Positions 25,019 through 47,654 of a stretch of DNA of 64,000 nt are shown here, in pieces. The notes beneath the pieces were generated by a model. That model had not been told where the DNA came from, did not search any database, and worked only from the letters and a program-made list of their open reading frames with translations. Made by a program: the position numbers and the translations under genes. The stretch is from Haloglomus halophilum (GTDB lineage Archaea > Halobacteriota > Halobacteria > Halobacteriales > Haloarculaceae): contig NZ_CP101166.1 of NCBI RefSeq assembly GCF_024298885.1, forward strand, positions 3,285,149-3,349,148. The letters are read 5' to 3'. Each line of letters begins with the position of its first letter. Position 1 is the stretch's first letter.

Positions 25019-25996
25019 TCAGGCGGGTTTGATAGCAGGTGGCTGTATTTCGAGGCCGAGCTGGTTGAGTTCCTGCTCAGTGTAGTTCTGGAGATCTTCG
25101 AACAGGAGTTCGGTGAACTCCTCTCCGTCAATGATACCGATATGATGGTCGGACGCAGCAGCAGCCGCTTCCGCCCCCTCACTGACAGAGGTGCTCGTAA
25201 CGACGATTCCATGATCTCCAGGAGTCATCGAGGCAGCCAATTGCTCGACAGCACCAGCACCCAGCTCGCCCCGATCCGGATAGAAATGTTTCACCTGGAC
25301 TCTGATCGTGACATCGCCAGGAAGCTCTGCGAGGAGGTCAGTATCCCCGGACTCATCACTGGTCGTCGCTTCGCGTGAGATACTGGGGAAGTAGTTGTCC
25401 AGCACCGTCTTCACGACCGCTCCTTCGAAGCTATTTGCATTGATGCCAGGGATAGCTCCGTCCTGAAGTCGTTCGAGATACTCCTGCTGAAGCTCGCCGA
25501 ACCGGTCCCGCTCGCGGACGACGAGCTCAGATTCAACGAGGTCAGCAACACGGTCCCCATCCACAGAAAACACTGTTAGCCTGCCTTTCAGACTGTCGTG
25601 GATCCGTCCGGGAAGCGAGGAGCGACTGACGGCGCCGCCATCAAACTGCCACTCGACATCTCGCTGATGAGGGTAGCCCTTGCCCGCTTCCTGACTCGGT
25701 TCCCACCGGTACTCGCTGGTTACCTGGCCGATATACACGTCACCACCGGATGGAACCAAGATGTGATCGCCCTTTGAGATCTCGTTGGCGAATCGGTTGA
25801 CCTGACCAACAGCTTGGCCCTCTTTGTAGACGCTCCAATCGTAGGCGTCCTCGATCCGGCTCCGGATCTCAGCCTCTGTGGCCTCACTCAGATCGCCGAC
25901 CGAGTTCCAGCCAATAGCGACGATATCCTGATCGAGAAACTCATCTAGTCGGTTGATTCCGTGGGGTTTGGGTCGGACCACCCAGGCGTTCGCCAT
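25019..25996 (-). CDS. Mrr-like restriction endonuclease
   Basis: A 325-residue protein with an N-terminal EVE/PUA-like region (WVVRPKPHGINRL at residues 5-17, ISKGDHILVPSGG at 73-85) and a C-terminal Mrr-type PD-(D/E)XK domain. Catalytic-type residues are E191 in SFEGAVV, D220 in GDTDLL, and Q234-V-K236 in the Q-x-K form characteristic of Mrr, followed by IVVTSTSVSEGA and the typical IDGEEFTELL end. Such two-domain proteins are usually type IV, modification-dependent nucleases, with the N-terminal domain reading a modified base. It lies convergent to pglZ and has its own TATA-like box at 26019-26028. A nuclease beside BREX probably broadens protection to phage with modified DNA; this is inference. 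Confidence 0.75.
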   Translation of the reverse strand: MANAWVVRPKPHGINRLDEFLDQDIVAIGWNSVGDLSEATEAEIRSRIEDAYDWSVYKEGQAVGQVNRFANEISKGDHILVPSGGDVYIGQVTSEYRWEPSQEAGKGYPHQRDVEWQFDGGAVSRSSLPGRIHDSLKGRLTVFSVDGDRVADLVESELVVRERDRFGELQQEYLERLQDGAIPGINANSFEGAVVKTVLDNYFPSISREATTSDESGDTDLLAELPGDVTIRVQVKHFYPDRGELGAGAVEQLAASMTPGDHGIVVTSTSVSEGAEAAAAASDHHIGIIDGEEFTELLFEDLQNYTEQELNQLGLEIQPPAIKPA

Positions 25997-26298
25997 GGTA
26001 TAATTTTCTCCACAGACCGTTTAAAATCATTCACTACCGTATGTGACCGTGGTGCCTTCTAGGCATTGACGATACGGTTCATCGACGCCCGCCGGTGAGG
26101 ACTGCTTCCGCTCTCATTCTTCGAAGAGTTGTTCGGGGCAAACTCGGAGATAGCCCGTGATTCACTCCCATGCAGAATTAGGGTCGATGCGAAGCTACCT
26201 ACGAGATCCTCGAGCACTGCCTGGAATCCGCCGGGGCCAGATCGGAAATCCATCACCACAGAGCGAACCTTCTTGACACACGCCTCGGTGGCATCACC
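25997..26298. other. Intergenic region between the Mrr-like and CARF-like genes
   Basis: About 300 bases separating two divergent genes. Apart from the TATA-like box of the Mrr-like gene it contains open frames without coding character. No clear TATA box was found for the CARF-like gene, and no CRISPR-like repeats are present. Confidence 0.4.
26019..26028 (-). promoter_or_regulatory. TATA-like box for the Mrr-like gene
   Basis: On the minus strand the sequence gattttaaac is centred about 27 bases before the ATG at 25996, the expected spacing for a leaderless archaeal transcript. Confidence 0.45.
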
Positions 26299-26775
26299 AT
26301 GGCTCGACTCTGGGTAACGACGATGAGTACGCACCCGGAGTCAGTGGTCAACCCACTCATTGCTGCCTGCGAAGCCGGCTACGTTCCAACCGAGATTCGA
26401 TTGCTCTCAAACCCCAGTGTCGAAGGCTATGTTGCGACTGTTCGTGAGCTGTTTGCAGCCGTCACGACTGCTTACGGCCGTCAAAACACGGACATAGCGA
26501 TCACTGAGCTCGAAACAGAGACTGATTTCAAACGGATCGTCGACCATTTTCGCGACCCAATCCCCGACGAGGATGACGACGGCCCGACTGTCGCCGTGGA
26601 CGTCACACCAGGCCGGAAATTCATGTCGGCCATCGCGTTTCAGGCCGGCATCCAGTTCGGCGCTGATCACGTCTATTATCTCCACCTCGATTCGGGCGAC
26701 TACTTCGGGCAGGTCTACTCAACGATCCCCCGCTCAGCAACCGACCTCATCGACTTCCAGGAGCTGTTCGACTAA
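26299..26775 (+). CDS. Stand-alone CARF-like ligand-sensor protein
   Basis: A 158-residue single-domain Rossmann-like protein. It opens with a strand and a polar loop, RLWVTTMSTHPESVVNPLI (residues 3-21), continues with a second strand EIRLLSN (32-38) and an alpha helix, and ends with VAVDVTPGRKFMS (98-110) and HVYYLHL (124-130). The D-V-T-P-G-R-K-F-M motif corresponds to the conserved D-x-T-G-G-x-K-x-M segment that binds the ligand in CARF domains. No HEPN or other effector is fused. The following gene, three bases later and probably co-transcribed, encodes a PIN-like nuclease, so this looks like a sensor with an effector in trans. Known CARF domains bind cyclic oligoadenylates, but no synthase is visible here. 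A SAVED-like or other Rossmann regulator is the alternative. Confidence 0.65.
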   Translation: MARLWVTTMSTHPESVVNPLIAACEAGYVPTEIRLLSNPSVEGYVATVRELFAAVTTAYGRQNTDIAITELETETDFKRIVDHFRDPIPDEDDDGPTVAVDVTPGRKFMSAIAFQAGIQFGADHVYYLHLDSGDYFGQVYSTIPRSATDLIDFQELFD

Positions 26776-26778
26776 CCC

Positions 26779-27831
26779 ATGCATCTCCGTCGCCAGCACC
26801 TCATGACCTTGCTGAACGCGCTTTACAGCGAGGGCGTCACTACACTCACAGTCGAGCATCCGAGCCCCCAGATCGACACGTTACTCCGGATCGACCTGGG
26901 CGATGACGCGACCGCAACGGTCCGGTTCCCGACACCGTTGGATGAGTATCGCGAGACACGCGAACAGATCCAACTGGAGCATGGGGATGCTCCATACAGC
27001 GATCTGCCCGACCCGCACGAGTTCGTGGCCGCGCTCACCGGCTGTGGGCTGGTTGAGCTCGCCAATCGCGAAGCGGTTGATGAATACCTTGAGCAGGTTT
27101 GCTACCCGGCGATCGAGGCCGGCGACGCGCCATTGATGATCGGTATTGACGCGAATATCTTCCCCTGGGGGTTTCCCGAGCAGTTGGGAATCGACCACGT
27201 AACTGGCGCGGAAGATGCCAAGGGCCGAACCCCGACAAACGGCTACGCACTCTCGAATGGCGTCGTAGAGGAACTCCGCTGGCAGTACACCCAACACCAC
27301 GCGGATGCGTTAGTCGCCGCGTTTGGCGACGAGTTCGAGCGGCTCGCGGAGCAGCCGGGTGGGGCAAAGCGAGCTGGGCGACTCGGAATCCGCGCGTATC
27401 AGTCACTCATCGCGACCCGGAACGTCGATCTCGTCCATAGTGAGAAGGGTGACAGCGCGATCGTCGATGGGTATGTCCGCTACGACGAGGCTCACTACAA
27501 GGAGCCACTCCTGCTCAGCAACGATCGCGGCTTCATCAACCAGGCAACGGAGGCCGGTCTTGCAGCCCAACGCCTGGCGTTTAAATCCACGCTGCCCCAC
27601 CGGACGAGCGTCTCCTGGCGTACGGTGGCTGAGGCGTTGTACTCCCTGGCGATGCAGTTCGGGGTGGTACGGCTGCCGAAGGTGACACTCTATGGGGTCT
27701 GGACGGAGAAAGACGACCAGCATTGGCGAAACGACGAGGTCGATATCACGTTCCGTGGCAGCCAGTCCTCAGTTCGACGCCCCATCGTGCGCCATCGCCG
27801 TATCGCGACTGAGTACGACCGCCTGATGTGA
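26779..27831 (+). CDS. PIN-like ribonuclease paired with CARF-like protein
   Basis: A 350-residue protein. From about residue 120 it carries a PIN-type arrangement of acidic residues: D124 in MIGIDANIF, E164/E165 in GVVEELRW, D225 or D230 in KGDSAIVDGY, and D249 in LLLSNDRGF, each after a hydrophobic strand or in a helix as in the PIN fold. The first 115 residues form a separate domain, with VRFPTPLDEYRETREQI, that I do not recognise; it may contact the CARF partner. The gene begins three bases after the CARF-like stop. PIN domains are usually single-strand RNA-cleaving toxins. A ligand-gated RNase acting during infection would fit, but is inference. The four-acid pattern was found by eye and not tested by structure prediction. 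Confidence 0.6.
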   Translation: MHLRRQHLMTLLNALYSEGVTTLTVEHPSPQIDTLLRIDLGDDATATVRFPTPLDEYRETREQIQLEHGDAPYSDLPDPHEFVAALTGCGLVELANREAVDEYLEQVCYPAIEAGDAPLMIGIDANIFPWGFPEQLGIDHVTGAEDAKGRTPTNGYALSNGVVEELRWQYTQHHADALVAAFGDEFERLAEQPGGAKRAGRLGIRAYQSLIATRNVDLVHSEKGDSAIVDGYVRYDEAHYKEPLLLSNDRGFINQATEAGLAAQRLAFKSTLPHRTSVSWRTVAEALYSLAMQFGVVRLPKVTLYGVWTEKDDQHWRNDEVDITFRGSQSSVRRPIVRHRRIATEYDRLM

Positions 27832-35861: not shown

Positions 35862-36710
35862 TCAACTCCTTCCGCCCTCGAACGGTAGGGAAGTGCCCGG
35901 TGCTGCTAGGGATTCGATCGACGAACAGTGGAGGTAGGGCCCGGAAATAGTGAGTGGGCTCTGGGTATCGGGCCGCTCGCATCGGATGCCGGTCACCGCT
36001 GCCTCATCTCCCTCGACAACGCCCAATGCGAGATGGTCGGCCAGAACGATGGGAACGGATGCTGCCGGAGCGGATTCCTCGCCATCCGTGGGTCGTTCGA
36101 GTCGGGCGGTTTGAATCGGTCTGTAGAGCGAGTGTTCAGGCTCAAACTGCCACGGATCGTCGGCCGTACACGCTGTACAGGGGCCGATGTCCGGTGGGCC
36201 CTCATCCAGCGTTCCGATCGAGATGAGTTGCTCGCTTCCACAATCCTCACACCGCATCGCCGCTTCGTACAGCGATAGTTCGACCCGTGAGGCTTCCTGA
36301 ACCACGCCTTCGAGGCGGCAGAGTCGCTCTGGCGAAACCGCTCCGAATTGCCCGCCGACGGATGGTCCTTGGTAGACCTCGAAGTTCGTCGCCTCGATGA
36401 GGCGGCCAGCACCCTCTCTGTCGGTGAACACCTGATACGCGAGGCGAGCCATCGAAATCGTCGTCGCAGGATCCTCCCGAAGTCGGCTCGCAAGTTGGGG
36501 ATGGACTCGAGCGACTGCATCGTAGTTGAGGCGAGCCGTACGGAATCCGTCGACTGCCTCGGCCGACCAGGGGTCGAGCGGCCAGGTTCCGGTGACGGGT
36601 GTCTCCGCGTCGGCCCCGTGGTACAATCGCGACTCGGTCGGTCGCGAGACCGTTTCCAGTCCTGTCGGATATAGTTCCGTGAATTCCTCGATGAGGTCGT
36701 TTTGTGACAT
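35862..36710 (-). CDS. MCM N-terminal-domain-like protein lacking the AAA+ module
   Basis: A 282-residue protein whose whole length follows the non-ATPase part of archaeal MCM. The start MSQNDLIEEFTELY and the NYDAVARVHPQLASRLREDP segment (62-81) resemble MCM domain A. The OB fold follows: CRLEGVVQEASRVE (131-144), a zinc-binding pair of CxxC knuckles (C154/C157 and C178/C181), then RPIQTARLERP (197-207), SVPIVLADHL (218-227) and GDEAAVTGI (234-242), matching MCM's inserted Q-x-x-x-x-x-E and GDxVxVTGI elements. No Walker A or sensor motif is present and the gene ends soon after the OB fold. The start is the ATG giving MSQN; upstream open sequence does not resemble MCM. MCM uses this region for hexamer contacts and single-strand binding. 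Here it may bind single-stranded DNA or interfere with replication, which is inference. Confidence 0.7.
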   Translation of the reverse strand: MSQNDLIEEFTELYPTGLETVSRPTESRLYHGADAETPVTGTWPLDPWSAEAVDGFRTARLNYDAVARVHPQLASRLREDPATTISMARLAYQVFTDREGAGRLIEATNFEVYQGPSVGGQFGAVSPERLCRLEGVVQEASRVELSLYEAAMRCEDCGSEQLISIGTLDEGPPDIGPCTACTADDPWQFEPEHSLYRPIQTARLERPTDGEESAPAASVPIVLADHLALGVVEGDEAAVTGIRCERPDTQSPLTISGPYLHCSSIESLAAPGTSLPFEGGRS

Positions 36711-37255: not shown

Positions 37256-38410
37256 ATGGTAGATGTTCCAGATACAGCGTATATAAACCATGCATGGTCA
37301 AAGGATAAATGGAAGCCAATTATCGCTGCACTTTATAGAAGTAAGATCGCAGCAATTCATTTTGGAGACTTCCCAGTAAGTCTAACTGAATCGGAGTGGG
37401 CTGATGCGGGTCATAAGAATTCAAATAAAAGCTCAATCGGGAGACTATCCGAATATGCTCGTGAGGGTCGCATTTTAGCAGTTTCATACTCGGGACATCC
37501 GGCTCTTTCTGGAGGGCGATACGTCGGGACAGTGGGGTCACCGGAGTCTGCGTCTAGTGACTCTGACCGGATGCTCCTGTTAGTTTGTGAATATGGAGAG
37601 GAGGTAGAGCCTCAGAACGCGATTGTGGACTATATTTCTGTCCCGATTGGTGCAAATCAAGACCAGATTGAATCACAGGTGGACGATCTCAATAACGAGG
37701 CAGCTCAGTATGTTCATTCCGTAATCGAAAATAGGGGAAGTGTCGATTCTGACGGCCCGAGCTACAAGATTCTCAAAGGAATACAGTTAAACAAAAATGA
37801 TGTAGAGTGGGTTTGGAACCAAGACTTCCCTGGGCTTTGGGCAGCGAATAAGCGCGGAACCATCATGGGATGGAATACGGGGGATCAGCACCTCTATGCA
37901 GCATACTATAGTGCAGTTTCCGACCACGTGGATATCGACCGACTTGACGATGTCTATGATATAATCGGGAGGGACAAATCGAGCGTTTGGGCTCTATCAG
38001 AAGGCCAGCTTGAAGCACTCTGTGGAGAGTACCTCCGGCGGCAAAACGATAGTTACGTAGAGCTAATATCGGCGGGCGGTTCATTATCTGAAGCAGATAT
38101 ATTTGCCGGAATAGAGAACGATGATCGAGAGATCGTCGCACAAGTTACATTTGAAAAGAAAGTAGATGATGCTGAGAGTAAATTAAGAAAATTATTATCC
38201 TATAGCCAGGATGACCCAGCTGTTGAGCTTATCTTTTTCGGTCCCAAAGAGGTAGAGTCGAAATTGCCTGATACGGTCGAGGATACCAAAGTTAGCGACA
38301 TATATACACCCATAGAAGAAGTTCTTCAGAAATTTGAGTCAGGGATGGGGACAGAATTCGTTGAAATGTTACTCAGTATCAAATTATCTGGTGGTAATCC
38401 GAAGATATAG
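37256..38410 (+). CDS. AT-rich hypothetical protein with possible Mrr-like nuclease C-terminus
   Basis: A 384-residue protein whose codons are clearly AT-richer than any neighbour (many AAA, ATA and TTA), a sign of recent arrival. N-terminal part: WKPIIAALYRSKIAAIHFGDFPV and GRLSEYAREGRILAVSYSG resemble EVE/PUA-like modules found before type IV nucleases. C-terminal part: LSEGQLEALCGEYLRRQND at about residues 247-265, then LSEADIFAGIEND and IVAQVTF, which follow the order of an Mrr-like core (helix, D, strand with Q-x-K), except that the lysine is replaced by threonine. The domain may therefore be inactive or use a different residue, or the resemblance may be accidental. The TATA-like box suggests an autonomous gene. 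The upstream and downstream neighbours are more than 300 bases away. Confidence 0.55.
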   Translation: MVDVPDTAYINHAWSKDKWKPIIAALYRSKIAAIHFGDFPVSLTESEWADAGHKNSNKSSIGRLSEYAREGRILAVSYSGHPALSGGRYVGTVGSPESASSDSDRMLLLVCEYGEEVEPQNAIVDYISVPIGANQDQIESQVDDLNNEAAQYVHSVIENRGSVDSDGPSYKILKGIQLNKNDVEWVWNQDFPGLWAANKRGTIMGWNTGDQHLYAAYYSAVSDHVDIDRLDDVYDIIGRDKSSVWALSEGQLEALCGEYLRRQNDSYVELISAGGSLSEADIFAGIENDDREIVAQVTFEKKVDDAESKLRKLLSYSQDDPAVELIFFGPKEVESKLPDTVEDTKVSDIYTPIEEVLQKFESGMGTEFVEMLLSIKLSGGNPKI

Positions 38411-40152: not shown

Positions 40153-43100
40153 ATGACACGGCAGGTCCACACTGCCCCCACGGTTGCTGACGCCGAGCGA
40201 GCAGCGCTCACAGCGGCAGCATCGGAGGCGGGCACCCAGCCGGGGGCAATCCTCTACCTTGCGCCCGGTGGTCGTCCAGCAGCGGACGTCAAATCACGGT
40301 GGGAGGAGCTTGGTACGCCGATTCGACTCCGGACCTCGGATTTCGATACGGTTGTCACCGAAGCGATCGAACAGCTCGACTACGAACCGCGGAGTCGAGG
40401 ACTGTCCTTGGAGCAACGGCAACGGATCGTCGAAGCGGCCGTCGATGGGCTGGACGGGCAGGATCACCCGCTCGCGATGCGGGACGGACCAGCAGGACCT
40501 GAGGCATGTGCACAGGCAGAGGACCTCCTCTCGCTACTGGAGTTCGCCGGGCTCGTGGACTCGGCCGCCATTCGGACCGATGAACGGCTCGAGCCGGTCT
40601 CAACCCCAGTCCGAGATGCAATCACCGCACTCTCTGCTGAATTCGATTCTCGACGCGATGTCTTTGCCGATGAGCGTGGCCAGAAGACGCTGCAGAGCGA
40701 ACGGTATCAGCGTGTCTGTACGGCCGACAATGGGCTGGCAGCCGTGCTTGATCCGGTCGATGCGGTAGTTCTAGGCCCGCATCCATTCTACTCCCCACTC
40801 GAGGCAGACCTGATTGACGCGATCGCCAGCGAGGTCGAGATCATGACGGCCGCGCTACCGCTGGCGGCCGCTGCACTCGATGCTCCGCCAGCGCTTGGGG
40901 AGTCGCTCGCTGGGATTGACGTTGGTGCCAGCCGGGCGTGGCAGCGGTACGCCGATCTGAACTTCGCTCATAAGCCCCCCGCGGAGCCAAGCCGAGCCTC
41001 GGGGACCGACATTGCGGCGGCCTGCTATCGCTATCAGACGGGGACGGAGCTCCGACCGGCCGCAGTCGAGGCAGCCGGCATCGACTGGCAAACCTACCCC
41101 ACGCCCGCCCACGAAACTCGTGGTGCGGCCCGAACGGTGCGAACGGCACTCGAAGCTGGGCGTGACACGGATGAGATCGGGGTCGTGGTGACGAACCTTG
41201 CCGACCGGCGCCGGGAGTTCTTCGAAGTGTTCAGCCAGTACGGCATCCCAACACAGACGACCGAGGAAGGGGCACTCGACCAGACGGAGCTCGGGGCCGT
41301 ACTGTCGGATGCGATACGAATCGGGAGTGGCGAGGGTCGGCTTCGAGACATCCTCCGACTGCTCGATAACCCCCTGACGGACCTCTCATGGCCGGCGGCA
41401 ACGATGACAGCCGCGGAGCTCGGCACCATCGTCGGTCAGCTCGAGGTGAGCAGTATCGCGGCCGCCCAGCAGCTCCTCGAACGAGAGGGGCAGGACGACC
41501 GTGCCGCCTCGCTGGAATGGCTCACAGCGCTCTGTGCAGAGTTCGTCGATGCTCCAACGAGCGAGGTCCACGAGCAGACGTATGCCCTGTTGGAGACGCT
41601 CGGCGTGGTGACACAGGCTGCTGCCGAGGACGCCTGGGAACTGGATACAACAGCCGAGCGGCCGAAGTGGGCCCGAGACCAAGCGCAGGCTGCGCGACGC
41701 GAACTGGATCGGGTCCTTGACTCCCTAGCTGCGACCACAGCGCTCGATGCCCGGAACGTCGGCGAGCGACTGCCACGCGCACTAGCAACGGCGGCTGTCG
41801 AGGCATCGATCGGCGATCCCGACGGAATCGTCCTCTGCTCGCCAACGGATGTGCTTCAGCATGAGTTCGCCGTCACCGTCGTGGCCGGCCTGACAACAGA
41901 GGCGTTCCCGTCTCCGCCAACACGACTGGCATTCACGCGTGAAATCAACGACTCCCACCCCGATTTCGAGCCCGGCGATACCACGCTTCGCGCCCGGTAT
42001 GCGCTCGGGCTACTGGCGAGTGCCAGCGATCGGCTCGTCCTTTCACACCCGGACCAAACGCCAGAGGGCGACCAGTCAGTGATTGCTGACTTCCTCGCTG
42101 AGCTACAGCGGCTATGTGATGGTGACCTGGAGCCGACCCAGCACGATGACGGCGACCAGCTCCATTCCCGAGAAGATATTCAGCGGCAGGTTGGCCGGGT
42201 GCTGGGCGCCCGATCACAGCCGGATGAGGACGTCGCAACCACCGCCGCAGAGAGTGGGGCGTTCGAAACAGGGCCCGGGACACCCGCAACACGGCTTCAA
42301 GCCGGGATTACCTGCGCGGCCGCACGTCGCGACGCCTCGACAACGCGGTATGACGGGCGCCTCTCTCCGGAAACGGTCGAAGAGTTCGCGGCCAGCGAGG
42401 CCCCACTCAGCCCGAGTCGAATCGATACGTACGCTGCTTGCGGGTTCAAGTTCTTCGCGAGCTACCTCCTCGATTTCGAGTCGCCAGAGACCATCGCGAC
42501 CGAACCCGATACTGGGGTACGCGGACACTTCATCCACGAAACGGTGGGCCGCTTCTTCAAATCTCTTCAGGCAACGCCGGGTGAACCCGTTCATATCGCA
42601 GATCCGGACCCGTATCATGACGCCCTCTTCGAGGCGGCACAGACGGAACTGAACCAAGCCTACGTTGCGGAGTACGAATCCACCTTCCACGACGGCTGGC
42701 TCCAGCGCCTCTTTTCGGGCCTCGAGCCCTCATCGCACACGAACCCATATCAGGGGCCACCTGCCCATCGGGGGCTCTTCATCCGATTCCTGGAATCGTT
42801 GGCCGAGGAGGAAGCGCTAACGAGCGTCTCTCCGGCATTCTTCGAGGCGGCAATTGGCCTCAGTCGCCAGCGAAGTGATGTCACGACGCTGCTGCATGAG
42901 GAGCCGGTTGAGTTGGTCGATGGCATCAAGGTTCGAGGCAAAGTCGATCGGGTGGACATCGATCCAAGTGCAAGCCCCGCCGAATTCGCTGCGATCGATT
43001 ACAAAACCGGTAGCAGCCCCAGCATTAGCAACGTTCGGTCGGGGCTCAGTTTCCAGCTCCCACTCTATCTGCGGCTCCTCGACGCGGTGCTTGATGAAGA

Positions 43101-43518
43101 GACGGACTGGCGGCCGGTTGGGGCCGCATACTACGACCTAAAGCCACCTGCAACTGCGGCGATCCAGAAGAGTCCGCTTGCGTCGAAGGACCATACGGAG
43201 CACTTTGGCACGGGTGGGGAAGCACTGCTCCGGGCGCAGAAAGACTCACTCTTTGAAACCCAAGAGGGCGAAGACTCGCTGGAGGAGTTCCTCTTCGAGA
43301 CGATAGACGAACGCCTCCAAACGATTGGGGCAGCGCTTGCTGAGGGCATCTACCACCCGACGCTGTTAGCTGCGGATGATGCGGGCTGTGAGCATTGTGA
43401 TTTCGCACATGTTTGTGACGTTCGCCACCATCGACGCGCAGAGCGGCTGGAGCAGCACGGGCTGGAGACAGCCTACGTCCCACCAGGTGCCACCGATTCA
43501 ATGGGGGCAGAGCAATGA
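40153..43518 (+). CDS. AddB-like protein with iron-sulfur-type PD-(D/E)XK nuclease domain
   Basis: A 1121-residue protein encoded directly before the AddA-like gene and overlapping it by 4 bases (ATGA). The N-terminal part is helicase-like but has no classical Walker A, as is usual for AddB partners. The C-terminal domain (about residues 755-1095) has a single Cys (C763 in YAACGFKFF) paired with C1079-x2-C1082-x5-C1088 (CEHCDFAHVC), the arrangement of the 4Fe-4S-stapled nucleases of AddB, Cas4 and Dna2. Within it are GHFIHETVGRFF and D949/K951 in AIDYKTG. With the next gene it should form an AddAB-like helicase-nuclease that processes double-strand DNA ends. Archaeal homologues of this pair are found in haloarchaea; whether they replace or supplement RadA-linked resection is not known. 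Confidence 0.8.
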   Translation: MTRQVHTAPTVADAERAALTAAASEAGTQPGAILYLAPGGRPAADVKSRWEELGTPIRLRTSDFDTVVTEAIEQLDYEPRSRGLSLEQRQRIVEAAVDGLDGQDHPLAMRDGPAGPEACAQAEDLLSLLEFAGLVDSAAIRTDERLEPVSTPVRDAITALSAEFDSRRDVFADERGQKTLQSERYQRVCTADNGLAAVLDPVDAVVLGPHPFYSPLEADLIDAIASEVEIMTAALPLAAAALDAPPALGESLAGIDVGASRAWQRYADLNFAHKPPAEPSRASGTDIAAACYRYQTGTELRPAAVEAAGIDWQTYPTPAHETRGAARTVRTALEAGRDTDEIGVVVTNLADRRREFFEVFSQYGIPTQTTEEGALDQTELGAVLSDAIRIGSGEGRLRDILRLLDNPLTDLSWPAATMTAAELGTIVGQLEVSSIAAAQQLLEREGQDDRAASLEWLTALCAEFVDAPTSEVHEQTYALLETLGVVTQAAAEDAWELDTTAERPKWARDQAQAARRELDRVLDSLAATTALDARNVGERLPRALATAAVEASIGDPDGIVLCSPTDVLQHEFAVTVVAGLTTEAFPSPPTRLAFTREINDSHPDFEPGDTTLRARYALGLLASASDRLVLSHPDQTPEGDQSVIADFLAELQRLCDGDLEPTQHDDGDQLHSREDIQRQVGRVLGARSQPDEDVATTAAESGAFETGPGTPATRLQAGITCAAARRDASTTRYDGRLSPETVEEFAASEAPLSPSRIDTYAACGFKFFASYLLDFESPETIATEPDTGVRGHFIHETVGRFFKSLQATPGEPVHIADPDPYHDALFEAAQTELNQAYVAEYESTFHDGWLQRLFSGLEPSSHTNPYQGPPAHRGLFIRFLESLAEEEALTSVSPAFFEAAIGLSRQRSDVTTLLHEEPVELVDGIKVRGKVDRVDIDPSASPAEFAAIDYKTGSSPSISNVRSGLSFQLPLYLRLLDAVLDEETDWRPVGAAYYDLKPPATAAIQKSPLASKDHTEHFGTGGEALLRAQKDSLFETQEGEDSLEEFLFETIDERLQTIGAALAEGIYHPTLLAADDAGCEHCDFAHVCDVRHHRRAERLEQHGLETAYVPPGATDSMGAEQ

Positions 43519-46500
43519 TCGATGACAGTCGGTTAGAGCGAGAACAGCTAACCGCAAAGGAGACGCTGGACGCCAACGTGACTCTTCGGGCGGGGGCTGG
43601 AACGGGGAAGACAACGACACTGACGGCCCGGTATCTCGAGATTCTAGAGCGCGAACTCGATGCGATCGAAGGGCACCCAGAGCAGGAGGAACTGGCCGCA
43701 GCGTTACCACAGCAGATCCTTACGACAACATTCACAGAGCGAGCAGCAGCTGATCTACAGGAAAGTGTTCGTGAGGAAGTGAATGCGCGGCTGACAGCGG
43801 CCGAGAGCGACCGGCGGTTCACGCTTTGGCGTGAGGTAGCCGACGGGCTCGAGGAAGGCTATATCCACACCCTCCACGGCCTGTGCCACCGCATCCTGGC
43901 CGAGCATGCGGTCGGGACAGCCCGCGACCCGACCGTCGCAGACACCAGCCCGCTCGCACGGTATGGCGTTACCTACGACGACATCGGCCCCGGGTTCGAT
44001 GTCGTCGAGGAGGCCGACGCCGATGCACTCGTGGGAGAGTCCGTGAGTGCAGCTGTGCGGGCCAATGAAGAGACGGACGCTGTCCAGACACTCGCACGGC
44101 GATTCGATCGGAGCACGATCGAAGCGGCATTGGAGGATCTCCTCTCATACAATCCGCGTCGCACCGCGTTTGCGTGGTTGGACCAGGTCGCGAGCTACGA
44201 TGACGCCGCCACGTACGCCCAGGATCACATCGCGCAGTATTTCGATGTCGTGCGGCCGGACTTCGACCCGGCGTGGATCGACGAGGCGGTCGAGGCAGCG
44301 GTTCCGGCTGCAGTCACTATCGCAGCGAACTACGAGGAGACACGGCCGGATCTCCATGGCCATCTCTGCATGTGGGCCTTGGATGGCCTCGTCGACAGCG
44401 TCGAGGAGCGGGGACTCGACGGAACCACATCGCTATCAGACCTGAGTGAACAGCGACAGCGGGATCTCGCGATCGAAGTCGTCGCGGCACTGCGGAGTAG
44501 CAGTGGTGGAGTCCACGATGGAATGCTCGATGCTGCGTATCCGGACGAGCTTGATCCGGAGAGTCCACTCTATCGCGTCTCAGCAGCCGTTGAAACCGTC
44601 ACTGAACACGCGCGACGAGGGCCCTGGGACGACGTCCTTGAACTACTGTATGAAGGGGAAGAGGAGTCCTTCGAATACGTACAGGCGTTCGCCACACTCG
44701 CACAGCATGCGTTCAGCGAGTACGCCCGCCGCAAGCGCGATGAGGAGATGCTGGACTATGGTGACCTCATCGCGCTCACCAACCATTTCCTCAACTCGCT
44801 ACGCCCGGCCGCTCGACGAGAGATCGGCTTCTTCGCAGGCGGCAACGATGACTCGCCTCTAGGAGCACACGTCATGGTGGATGAGTTTCAGGATACGAAC
44901 CCGGCCCAATGGGCAGTCATCAAGGGGCTCACCTGCGAAGACCCATCGAATCCGGAGGCGACGAATCTGTTTCTCGTGGGCGATGATAAGCAGAGCATCT
45001 ATCGCTTCCGGGGGGCCGATGTCTCTGTCTTCGGTGACGCAGAAACGGAGCTCGATCGAGCGAATCAGGAAGCTGGAATCGTAGACGAGCAGGAACCGCT
45101 CACACGGAACTTCCGGACACTCGACGCGCCCGTCAGCGCCATCAACGGGTTGTTCGATAGAGTGTTCGTCAGTGAGCGGGCCGCAACCCAAGAAGATCCT
45201 TGGTATGCCGAATATGGGGGCCAGCCAGCGCCATTCGAAGCCGACTCAGAGCCACTGCAAGCAGCTCGCGAGGATCAGGCCGCGATTGAGCCAGTCGTCG
45301 AGTATCTCCCAGTGCCAGTTGATGCATCGTTAGCCGACCGGTTGTTGCAGTCCGACGACGAGACCACGCACGATCTCCTCGACGGGCCGACATTCGATCG
45401 AGCGGCGATGGAGGCCGACGCCGTAACGAACCGGCTCACGAAGCTGCTCACGGACGGCACACAGGTGTATGAGGAACTCGAAGAGGATGATCCGGCGTAC
45501 GATCAGTGGGACGATGGCTCCGATGGGCCCGTTGAGCGACCGCGTGCCGTCCAACCGGACGACATCGCGATCCTCCTCCGGACACGGAGTGATTTAGGCG
45601 CCTACGAGCGCTCGCTGCGCGAGGCGGGCGTTCCCTACAGCGTCATCAAAGGGGGTGGCTTCCTCGAAGCCCCCGAGATCGAGACGTTACTGAATCTGCT
45701 CCGGGTGCTCGTGGACCCAACCGATGATCGGGCGCTGTATGCACTTCTCCGGTCACCGATGTTCGGGCAACCTGACGATGCACTCGCACAGCTCGCGCTT
45801 CGGATTCAGGACGAGCCAGAGCAATCGCTGTGGGACGCCCTCAGCGCGGCGACCGAATCGGAATGGACCGCGATTCATGATGACCTCACGCGATTCCGAG
45901 GGTATGCGGGTCAGACCGATGCCGAACCAGCGGTAGAGTCGTGGGGAGAGCTTCTCACCCGGGTGTATGATCAGACCGGCTACCTGGCAGCCGTCGCAGC
46001 TGACGAGCGGGGCGAAAAGGCGGTTGCCAATGTTGAGCGCTTCCGTGATCGGCTTCGGGCCTCGGGACCGGAGGAGCGACAGGGGCTCGCTGAGCTGGTG
46101 GCCACACTCGAGGAGCAACTCGAGAATAGCGATGATCCGGAAGCGAACGTCATCTCGTTCGACGAGCCAGACAGCGGCACGACGACGGGAAGCGTCGATA
46201 TCCTCACCATTCACGAGGCCAAGGGTGACGAGTATCCGGTTGTGGTGGTCCCAGGGATGGCCCGCAACTTCCGACAGGCGAGTGATACGCAGTCGGGGCT
46301 CGGGAGCCAAACGATGGAGTTCGAGACTGTTCCTGACCCCACAGACGAGGGGCGCGTCCCCATCCTGGGCCTCAAAGGCCCGAATCCGCTCGATCCCTAC
46401 GCTGACAGTGGCACAGCCGCACGAGCGCTGGCACGCCACCAGCGACGGGCCGAAGAGCGAGCCGAAGAAAAGCGGACACTCTACGTGGCCTGCACGCGAG

Positions 46501-47654
46501 CCAGAGACCACCTTATCCTGGCAGGGCAACACAAACAGGGTGATAGTGAGGATGATGAGCCGGCCGTGATGGAAGCCCCAGAGCCGGCGGAGGCAGATGC
46601 ATGGCGAGACTGGGTCCAAGCCGTGTTGCTGCCTGACGATGACTCGTCGGAAGATGAAGACGGCCGTCAGGAAACGACCGCCGCCATCGACCCCACAGCG
46701 CCACTCGAGCGGCTCATTAGTGCTGAGCAGTATGATCGCACCCTTCCGTTCAAGCTCCGGGACGGGAGCGAACGAACCGGCCGAATCACGGTCAGACTGC
46801 CTCCGGAAGCAACCGACTACCAGCCTGGCGCGACAGAGCCAACGCTGAACCCGGACGCATACGATCCAGAGCCCGCCCTGACTCGAGAGACGGTCTTAGC
46901 GATCTCACCCAGCCAGTGCTCACGAGTTCTCGATGGGAGTGGCACATTGGAGCGGACACAGGCCCATCGGATCGAGTACCACCCCGGCACTAACACTGGG
47001 ACTGACCAGGGAACAGCGGGGCCCACAAGCGTCCCCGGAGGCATTCCGTCACGTGTGTTCGGCACGCTGGTGCACCGCTTCTGTGAGCTCCAGCCACCGA
47101 CAGACAAACACGAGCAGCTCATCCGCGACTTGCTGCGTGAGGCCGAGCAGGAGGGACTGCTCGATACGTTGCCGGAGGATGCTGCTCTTCAGTCGATCAC
47201 CGAGGCAGTCAGGACGCGCATGGAGCGGGTTACGGATGCTCTCGACCACATAGTCGATCACGGAGCTGTCCATGCCCAGTATGACGAATATCGAGCCGAA
47301 GCGACATTCGAAGCGGAGACGCCGCTAGGGGTTGATCGAGTCGAACTGGCCGGCGAGATCGATTATCTGGCAGCGACTGCGGATACCTACTACGTCATCG
47401 ATTACAAAACAGACCGTCCGGGCGATCGCGACCACCAGGAGTTCGTCGAAGAGCAAGCCACGCACCACCGGCCACAGTTGCTCGCCTACGCTGCGATGTT
47501 GGCGGCACACGATCCTGAGCGAGAGGTCCGTGCCGCGTTGTTCTTCACTGAAGTCGATGATCCGATCCATGACTTCGGCACGTTCGAGGCGCCAGCTGCG
47601 GAGTTATTCGAGGCGCTAGACGGGGTAACAGTCGCAGCAGAGCATACTCAGTAA
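43515..47654 (+). CDS. AddA-like UvrD-family helicase-nuclease
   Basis: A 1379-residue superfamily 1A helicase. Motif I is AGAGTGKTTT (26-35), motif II VDEFQDTNP (about 455-463), motif III VGDDKQSIYRFRGAD, motif IV LTRNFRT, motif V VDILTIHEAKGDEYP, and motif VI LYVACTRARDHL. The C-terminus carries a RecB-type nuclease with GTLVHRFCELQ, a strand, then YYVIDYKTDRP (D and K about 1297-1299) and a final QLLAYAAML. The protein is therefore a fused helicase-nuclease of the AddA/RecB type. The ATG overlaps the AddB-like stop, giving translational coupling. It should translocate along and degrade linear DNA together with its partner. Position inside a defence-rich island raises the possibility that it is used against phage DNA. 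Confidence 0.85.
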   Translation: MIDDSRLEREQLTAKETLDANVTLRAGAGTGKTTTLTARYLEILERELDAIEGHPEQEELAAALPQQILTTTFTERAAADLQESVREEVNARLTAAESDRRFTLWREVADGLEEGYIHTLHGLCHRILAEHAVGTARDPTVADTSPLARYGVTYDDIGPGFDVVEEADADALVGESVSAAVRANEETDAVQTLARRFDRSTIEAALEDLLSYNPRRTAFAWLDQVASYDDAATYAQDHIAQYFDVVRPDFDPAWIDEAVEAAVPAAVTIAANYEETRPDLHGHLCMWALDGLVDSVEERGLDGTTSLSDLSEQRQRDLAIEVVAALRSSSGGVHDGMLDAAYPDELDPESPLYRVSAAVETVTEHARRGPWDDVLELLYEGEEESFEYVQAFATLAQHAFSEYARRKRDEEMLDYGDLIALTNHFLNSLRPAARREIGFFAGGNDDSPLGAHVMVDEFQDTNPAQWAVIKGLTCEDPSNPEATNLFLVGDDKQSIYRFRGADVSVFGDAETELDRANQEAGIVDEQEPLTRNFRTLDAPVSAINGLFDRVFVSERAATQEDPWYAEYGGQPAPFEADSEPLQAAREDQAAIEPVVEYLPVPVDASLADRLLQSDDETTHDLLDGPTFDRAAMEADAVTNRLTKLLTDGTQVYEELEEDDPAYDQWDDGSDGPVERPRAVQPDDIAILLRTRSDLGAYERSLREAGVPYSVIKGGGFLEAPEIETLLNLLRVLVDPTDDRALYALLRSPMFGQPDDALAQLALRIQDEPEQSLWDALSAATESEWTAIHDDLTRFRGYAGQTDAEPAVESWGELLTRVYDQTGYLAAVAADERGEKAVANVERFRDRLRASGPEERQGLAELVATLEEQLENSDDPEANVISFDEPDSGTTTGSVDILTIHEAKGDEYPVVVVPGMARNFRQASDTQSGLGSQTMEFETVPDPTDEGRVPILGLKGPNPLDPYADSGTAARALARHQRRAEERAEEKRTLYVACTRARDHLILAGQHKQGDSEDDEPAVMEAPEPAEADAWRDWVQAVLLPDDDSSEDEDGRQETTAAIDPTAPLERLISAEQYDRTLPFKLRDGSERTGRITVRLPPEATDYQPGATEPTLNPDAYDPEPALTRETVLAISPSQCSRVLDGSGTLERTQAHRIEYHPGTNTGTDQGTAGPTSVPGGIPSRVFGTLVHRFCELQPPTDKHEQLIRDLLREAEQEGLLDTLPEDAALQSITEAVRTRMERVTDALDHIVDHGAVHAQYDEYRAEATFEAETPLGVDRVELAGEIDYLAATADTYYVIDYKTDRPGDRDHQEFVEEQATHHRPQLLAYAAMLAAHDPEREVRAALFFTEVDDPIHDFGTFEAPAAELFEALDGVTVAAEHTQ

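Follow-up and report, generated by a model that had tools for sequence, protein, structure and literature searches.

Archaea and eukaryotes replicate their DNA with the MCM helicase, and a gene of Haloglomus halophilum that encodes the N-terminal part of this helicase with no ATPase attached raises the question of what such a protein can do. The gene lies at 35862..36710 on the (-) strand (ATG at 36710, stop at 35862) of the window, i.e., the whole 64,000-nucleotide stretch of DNA analysed here, on the 4.18-Mb main contig, and encodes P0001, an ATPase-less MCM N-domain/OB protein of 282 amino acids. P0001 is acidic (pI 4.4), whereas the five remaining frames of the same stretch contain stops and would give basic products of pI 9-12, which marks this as a genuine haloarchaeal protein frame.

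An MCM N-tier without its motor

The preliminary description of a stand-alone MCM N-domain lacking the ATPase is borne out: the observation is confirmed, and the gene is real. P0001 matches MCM_OB, and an unfiltered search of the complete window in six-frame translation with an HMM built from eight full MCMs returned the P0001 ORF as its sole match, with no AAA+ module (Walker A/B, Arg finger) in any frame. A split or broken mcm, of which an ATPase module encoded downstream would be the sign, is ruled out at this locus, since no motor remnant exists anywhere in the window. Nor was a nuclease remnant found in any window frame, an HMM of the MCM-nuclease fusions described below matching just the N part of P0001, and Pfam gave no match in P0001 to the HSDR_N PD-(D/E)XK domain or to a C-terminal winged helix. 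A whole-genome search with MCM_OB recovered three loci, namely the host mcm (an intein-bearing 1955-aa frame located away from the P0001 locus), a plasmid-borne MCM-nuclease fusion and the P0001 gene itself.

P0001 also aligns to MCM profiles, the other point on which the initial assignment hung. The OB domain occupies residues 128-243 (35982..36329, (-) strand), as delimited by Pfam PF17207 (MCM_OB, E 9e-12, 45.3 bits against a cut-off of 24.8) and by an AF2 model searched with Foldseek. The NCBIfam MCM model NF040949 aligns to residues 61-249 with E 8.6e-8, and its 30.9 bits lie far below the whole-protein cut-off of 940, as those of a partial MCM should. Sequence matches in the PDB are archaeal MCMs, the best being 8x7t (E 7e-6), with PfMCM-N 4pof at 2.5e-4. 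Both CxxC pairs of the preliminary description are present as a zinc module, C154-x2-C157 ... C178-x2-C181 (36168..36251, (-) strand), whose four cysteines align with the invariant MCM cysteines. Domain A proved to be only partly recognisable: its weakly conserved remainder, residues ~58-110 (36381..36539, (-) strand), is covered by the NCBIfam match from residue 61 and by helices of the AF2 model, but Pfam MCM_N finds no match in P0001, and residues ~15-57 do not align with MCM and are modelled with low confidence (22-53 in AF2). The GDEAAVTGI motif is present at residues 234-242, yet the protein does not stop there: 40 further residues, including the last OB strand, bring the chain to where the OB domain naturally ends.

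The AF2 model (mean pLDDT 77) was built from an MCM-rich alignment and is thus not independent of homology; its Foldseek match is PfMCM-N (E 1.5e-17, TM 0.69). P0001 shares with the archaeal helicases PfMCM and MthMCM the zinc/OB fold of the N-tier, and differs from them in having neither AAA+ motor nor winged helix and in the loss of ssDNA contacts and of the communication loop. Judged from its sequence, P0001 is a highly diverged MCM paralogue that has lost the motor and the winged helix while keeping the zinc/OB N-tier.

Residues lost and residues kept

What the retained tier might do is best approached through the residues that serve it in full MCMs. MCM-N domains bind ssDNA; the tested contacts in PfMCM-N are R124, R186 and K129, and single alanine changes at R124 and K129 lower binding 7- and 4-fold, respectively (PMC3970758). 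Binding by PfMCM-N moreover requires the hexamer, and the protein becomes monomeric after deletion of the zinc finger or the change F179A (PMC4627082). In P0001, two of the three contacts are reversed in charge to glutamate (R124 to E139, K129 to E144; the segment from E139 to E144 lies at 36279..36296, (-) strand), while the arginine equivalent to R186 is retained as R203 (36102..36104, (-) strand). The allosteric communication loop (ACL) aligns with residues 203-224 (36039..36104, (-) strand), where it is degenerate and its GG motif is absent. The four zinc cysteines, the OB core and an aromatic residue (Tyr) at the position of F179 are kept. Across the near-invariant MCM positions, 18 of 46 are retained and 28 are lost.

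The same losses recur in other ATPase-less MCMs. In a sampled alignment, with kinship ignored, Lys or Arg occupies the R124 position in one of 27 ATPase-less rows versus 19 of 21 ATPase-bearing ones, and Asp or Glu in 21 of 27 versus none of 21. Phylogenetically independent pairs on the tree give 6:0 for loss of Lys/Arg at R124 (p 0.03) and 7:0 for loss of the communication-loop GG (p 0.016); P0001 was the discovery case for both traits. The zinc cysteines, on the other hand, are retained in every row of the alignment. The overlap between positions conserved in P0001 and in the solo MCM-N proteins described below showed no significant excess (p 0.12). In halophiles, unconstrained surface positions tend to drift to Asp or Glu, so that the safe inference is limited to release of the ssDNA contact, and the acidity of P0001 alone is no proof of a new one.

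It could be supposed that P0001 uses its MCM OB fold to bind ssDNA in the manner of RPA or SSB, given that MCM-N domains bind ssDNA (PMC3970758) and that R203 is kept. However, glutamate now stands at the two positions where alanine already reduces binding by PfMCM-N, and the latter needs a hexamer to bind at all, which makes this explanation distinctly improbable and disfavours the ssDNA-binding role first suggested for the protein. The joint loss of R124 and the ACL on a preserved scaffold argues more generally against ssDNA binding by motorless MCMs and points, by inference, to work on the protein faces of MCM rings instead. P0001, by its aligned residues, retains what MCMs use to form and pair N-tier rings and has lost the ssDNA grip and the coupling to a motor.

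Motorless MCMs across haloarchaea

The bare existence of N-only MCMs in haloarchaea has been known since 2014, when four "outliers" of 312-315 aa were listed as uncharacterised (Kristensen et al. 2014, PMC3972481); the statement that no role is established for such a protein holds, and P0001 adds a new and isolated form to a kind that was noted and never characterised. Genes on Haloterrigena turkmenica pHTUR05 and Halobiforma lacisalsi pHLAJ5I match two of these outliers by species and length, and together with relatives from Natronorubrum daqingense and Halorussus vallis they make up the plasmid clade sampled here. Like P0001, the outliers combine an MCM N-domain and zinc/OB region with the absence of AAA+, and the three Natrialbaceae members sampled have Asp or Glu in place of R124. 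These plasmid N-only MCMs lie directly downstream of a conserved protein of 555-826 aa with a P-loop-like motif (by eye), forming a cassette in which an N-only MCM bearing a tail of about 75 aa comes straight after the large protein (45-61% identity) (L206:999-4295, L207:3006-6427, L208:3118-5753 and L121:3419-6789). By analogy with this cassette, P0001 might be a plasmid-type replication accessory working with a separate P-loop ATPase. In contrast to the clade, however, P0001 is chromosomal, on a 4.18-Mb contig, has no C-terminal tail and no such large gene beside it, and no replication or integrase gene was recognised among its scanned neighbours; a role of this kind is very improbable.

A second clade consists of solo MCM-N proteins of 245-250 aa that end at the OB domain as P0001 does (support 99/98). 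Of 17 Halorussus genomes searched, 16 have one, and a second family has them too (loci L162-L168 and L169-L188). The Halorussus genes sit on replicons of 300-557 kb and, in each of the seven records with annotation, have a PadR-type gene downstream; their pairwise dN/dS values of 0.17-0.39 speak of purifying selection. This synteny and selection indicate that such N-only proteins are functional. In three genomes of the second family, the next gene downstream encodes aIF-2 beta, which is reported to neighbour full mcm in other archaea (PMC2643942). One solo copy, in genome G173, contains an in-frame TAG. With P0001 the clade shares the end at the OB domain, the missing ATPase and the loss of both R124 and the ACL, but P0001 has neither PadR nor aIF-2 beta genes beside it, its neighbours being unassigned or TrmB-type ORFs.

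P0001 itself groups with none of these clades. No close homologue was found in 59 relatives, 146 family genomes and 392 order genomes, nor in GTDB contigs, IMG/VR, plasmids and phages; the searches return MCMs alone, at 24-32% identity, the best matches being plasmid and virus-type MCMs (27-32%). Synteny of the 4-kb region around the gene is likewise missing in 38 relatives. In trees, P0001 forms a very long branch (3.5-5 changes per site) that none of them places with support: the solo clade (99/98) leaves it out, the plasmid clade of four reaches 100/100 without it, and no tree supports its grouping with the solo, plasmid or nuclease-fusion clades. A 304-aa protein in genome G244 (L060) was considered as a second stand-alone MCM-N and rejected as a pseudogene. 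This mcm pseudogene (L060:9376-10290) has an apparently frameshifted N-part, no motor and a transposase fragment nearby (by eye).

Such isolation invites the main rival explanation, namely that P0001 is what remains of a divergent mcm from a mobile element, cut off after its N domain, non-functional and in decay. Its best matches among plasmid and virus-type MCMs, its singleton status, the loss of 28 of 46 near-invariant positions and the existence of N-terminal mcm fragments, both L060 and one on a Natrinema salinisoli plasmid, all fit decay. Against it stand an open, acidic frame of 282 codons with intact zinc cysteines, the absence of an ATPase fragment from every window frame, a chain that stops where the OB domain naturally does, and ACL and R124 losses that are the same as in the selected solo proteins. 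We hold a relic to be less likely than not, but since P0001 has no orthologue, selection on it is not measurable and decay stays a real rival.

The third group is of a different make. Fusions of MCM-N/OB to HSDR_N, a PD-(D/E)XK domain, occur in seven of 392 genomes and on a Haloplanus plasmid. They lack the AAA+ motor. One is in the genome of P0001 (G000:C3:11555-13045, on the 140-kb contig C3; L147:11555-13048, L050 and L064); others are at L154, L155, L149, L151, L150 and L052:4411-5685. The MCM-N half is nearest to the chromosomal MCM of its own host, ranking first in six of seven cases, and in the tree it is sister to the host MCM in seven of seven (support 94-100); for the fusion of the P0001 genome, the top MCM-N matches are the MCMs of the genus. 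MCM-N was thus taken up on at least seven occasions, each time from the MCM of the host itself. The nuclease halves of the fusions stand apart from those of five free-standing HsdR_N proteins, and either one cassette has re-captured host MCM-N repeatedly or several separate fusions have arisen. The top Foldseek matches of a fusion model are to MCM-N, so the nuclease fold rests on the Pfam HSDR_N matches; a sequence search of the nuclease half against the PDB returned nothing. Just upstream of the fusion in genome G191 lie a nucleotidyltransferase-like ORF (CD-NTase-like by eye) and a possible membrane protein (L150:2666-4211), and downstream of it a recombinase-like ORF. The Haloplanus rubicundus fusion (L122:1084-13366, NZ_CP031149.1) is in an operon with relatives of the anti-phage DUF499, DUF1156 and PLD-helicase proteins, whose matches are below the NCBIfam cut-offs.

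Motorless MCMs thus fall into four groups or more: the plasmid clade, the syntenic solo clade, the nuclease fusions and the singleton P0001. The host-derived MCM-nuclease chimeras are more surprising than P0001, and the pattern of the class, these chimeras above all, is what is most worth following.

Genomic surroundings and a proposed role on MCM rings

P0001 lies in a low-GC, defence-rich island of the chromosome, in which a TmtA-like protein and a BREX type 5 system (BrxHII, PglX, two BrxC/PglY, BrxB and PglZ) occupy window positions 1605-24968. They are followed at 25019-27831 by a Mrr-type restriction endonuclease, a weakly matching Cas_NE0113/CARF protein and a weakly matching PIN protein. 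On the other side of P0001 there are a low-GC ORF (37256-38410) whose 384-aa product matches no family convincingly and, at 40153-47654, two large adjacent genes that resemble an AddAB helicase-nuclease pair, one for a PD-(D/E)XK protein and one for a UvrD helicase with PD-(D/E)XK. The neighbours that were scanned include no recognised gene for replication or integration, so the suggested part in replication of a mobile element finds no local support.

Sharing an island with BREX type 5 and TmtA, P0001 might be an accessory of these systems, and the nuclease-fused MCM of Haloplanus within an operon related to anti-phage DUF499/DUF1156/PLD systems gives the idea some colour. Yet the last BREX gene is 10.9 kb away with unrelated genes between, PADLOC gives no match for P0001, and the main text of a 2026 BREX survey (PMC12839542) describes no MCM N-domain accessory. 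Nothing ties P0001 to the neighbouring TmtA/BREX systems, and a defence-accessory role is improbable.

For a protein that has kept the scaffold but neither the DNA grip nor the motor coupling, contact with other MCM N-tiers is the simplest task left. It is tentatively proposed, at a strength somewhat short of probable, that P0001 docks on such tiers as a cap, decoy or assembly factor and not as an ssDNA binder. Through its zinc/OB surfaces it would bind the N-tiers of host MCM, or of the MCM of an invader, and thereby tune or block helicase loading, whether by capping the ring, by competing at the head-to-head zinc-finger interface or by aiding assembly. The capping or poisoning of MCM suggested in the preliminary description falls within this preferred class of explanation. 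Haloviruses and plasmids carry mcm, as virus and plasmid searches showed, and a target among the MCMs they encode would, speculatively, fit the defence-rich island. An analogue in this proposed mode of action, likened by function and not by sequence, may be eukaryotic MCMBP, an MCM-like protein without Walker A that assembles and handles MCM complexes (PMC9018068). Weighing against docking are the singleton status of P0001, its mere 18 of 46 near-invariant positions and its failure to group with any other ATPase-less clade.

It is tempting to extend docking to the class and to suppose that haloarchaea repeatedly make motorless MCMs as tools with which to attack or control MCM rings, a generalisation that we consider rather unlikely. 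Captured host N-tiers in which AAA+ was replaced by PD-(D/E)XK, at least seven times, would then act on the forks of host or invader, as would solo caps such as P0001, and ssDNA grip and motor coupling would have been lost convergently.

Recurrent motorless N-tiers that have convergently lost their ssDNA contacts would serve as separation-of-function variants made by nature, and could show what the N-tier does alone. They make it testable whether archaea possess MCMBP-like regulators or defence proteins that read replication rings, and nuclease fusions made in each case from the host's own MCM would offer a novel means of aiming a nuclease at replication.
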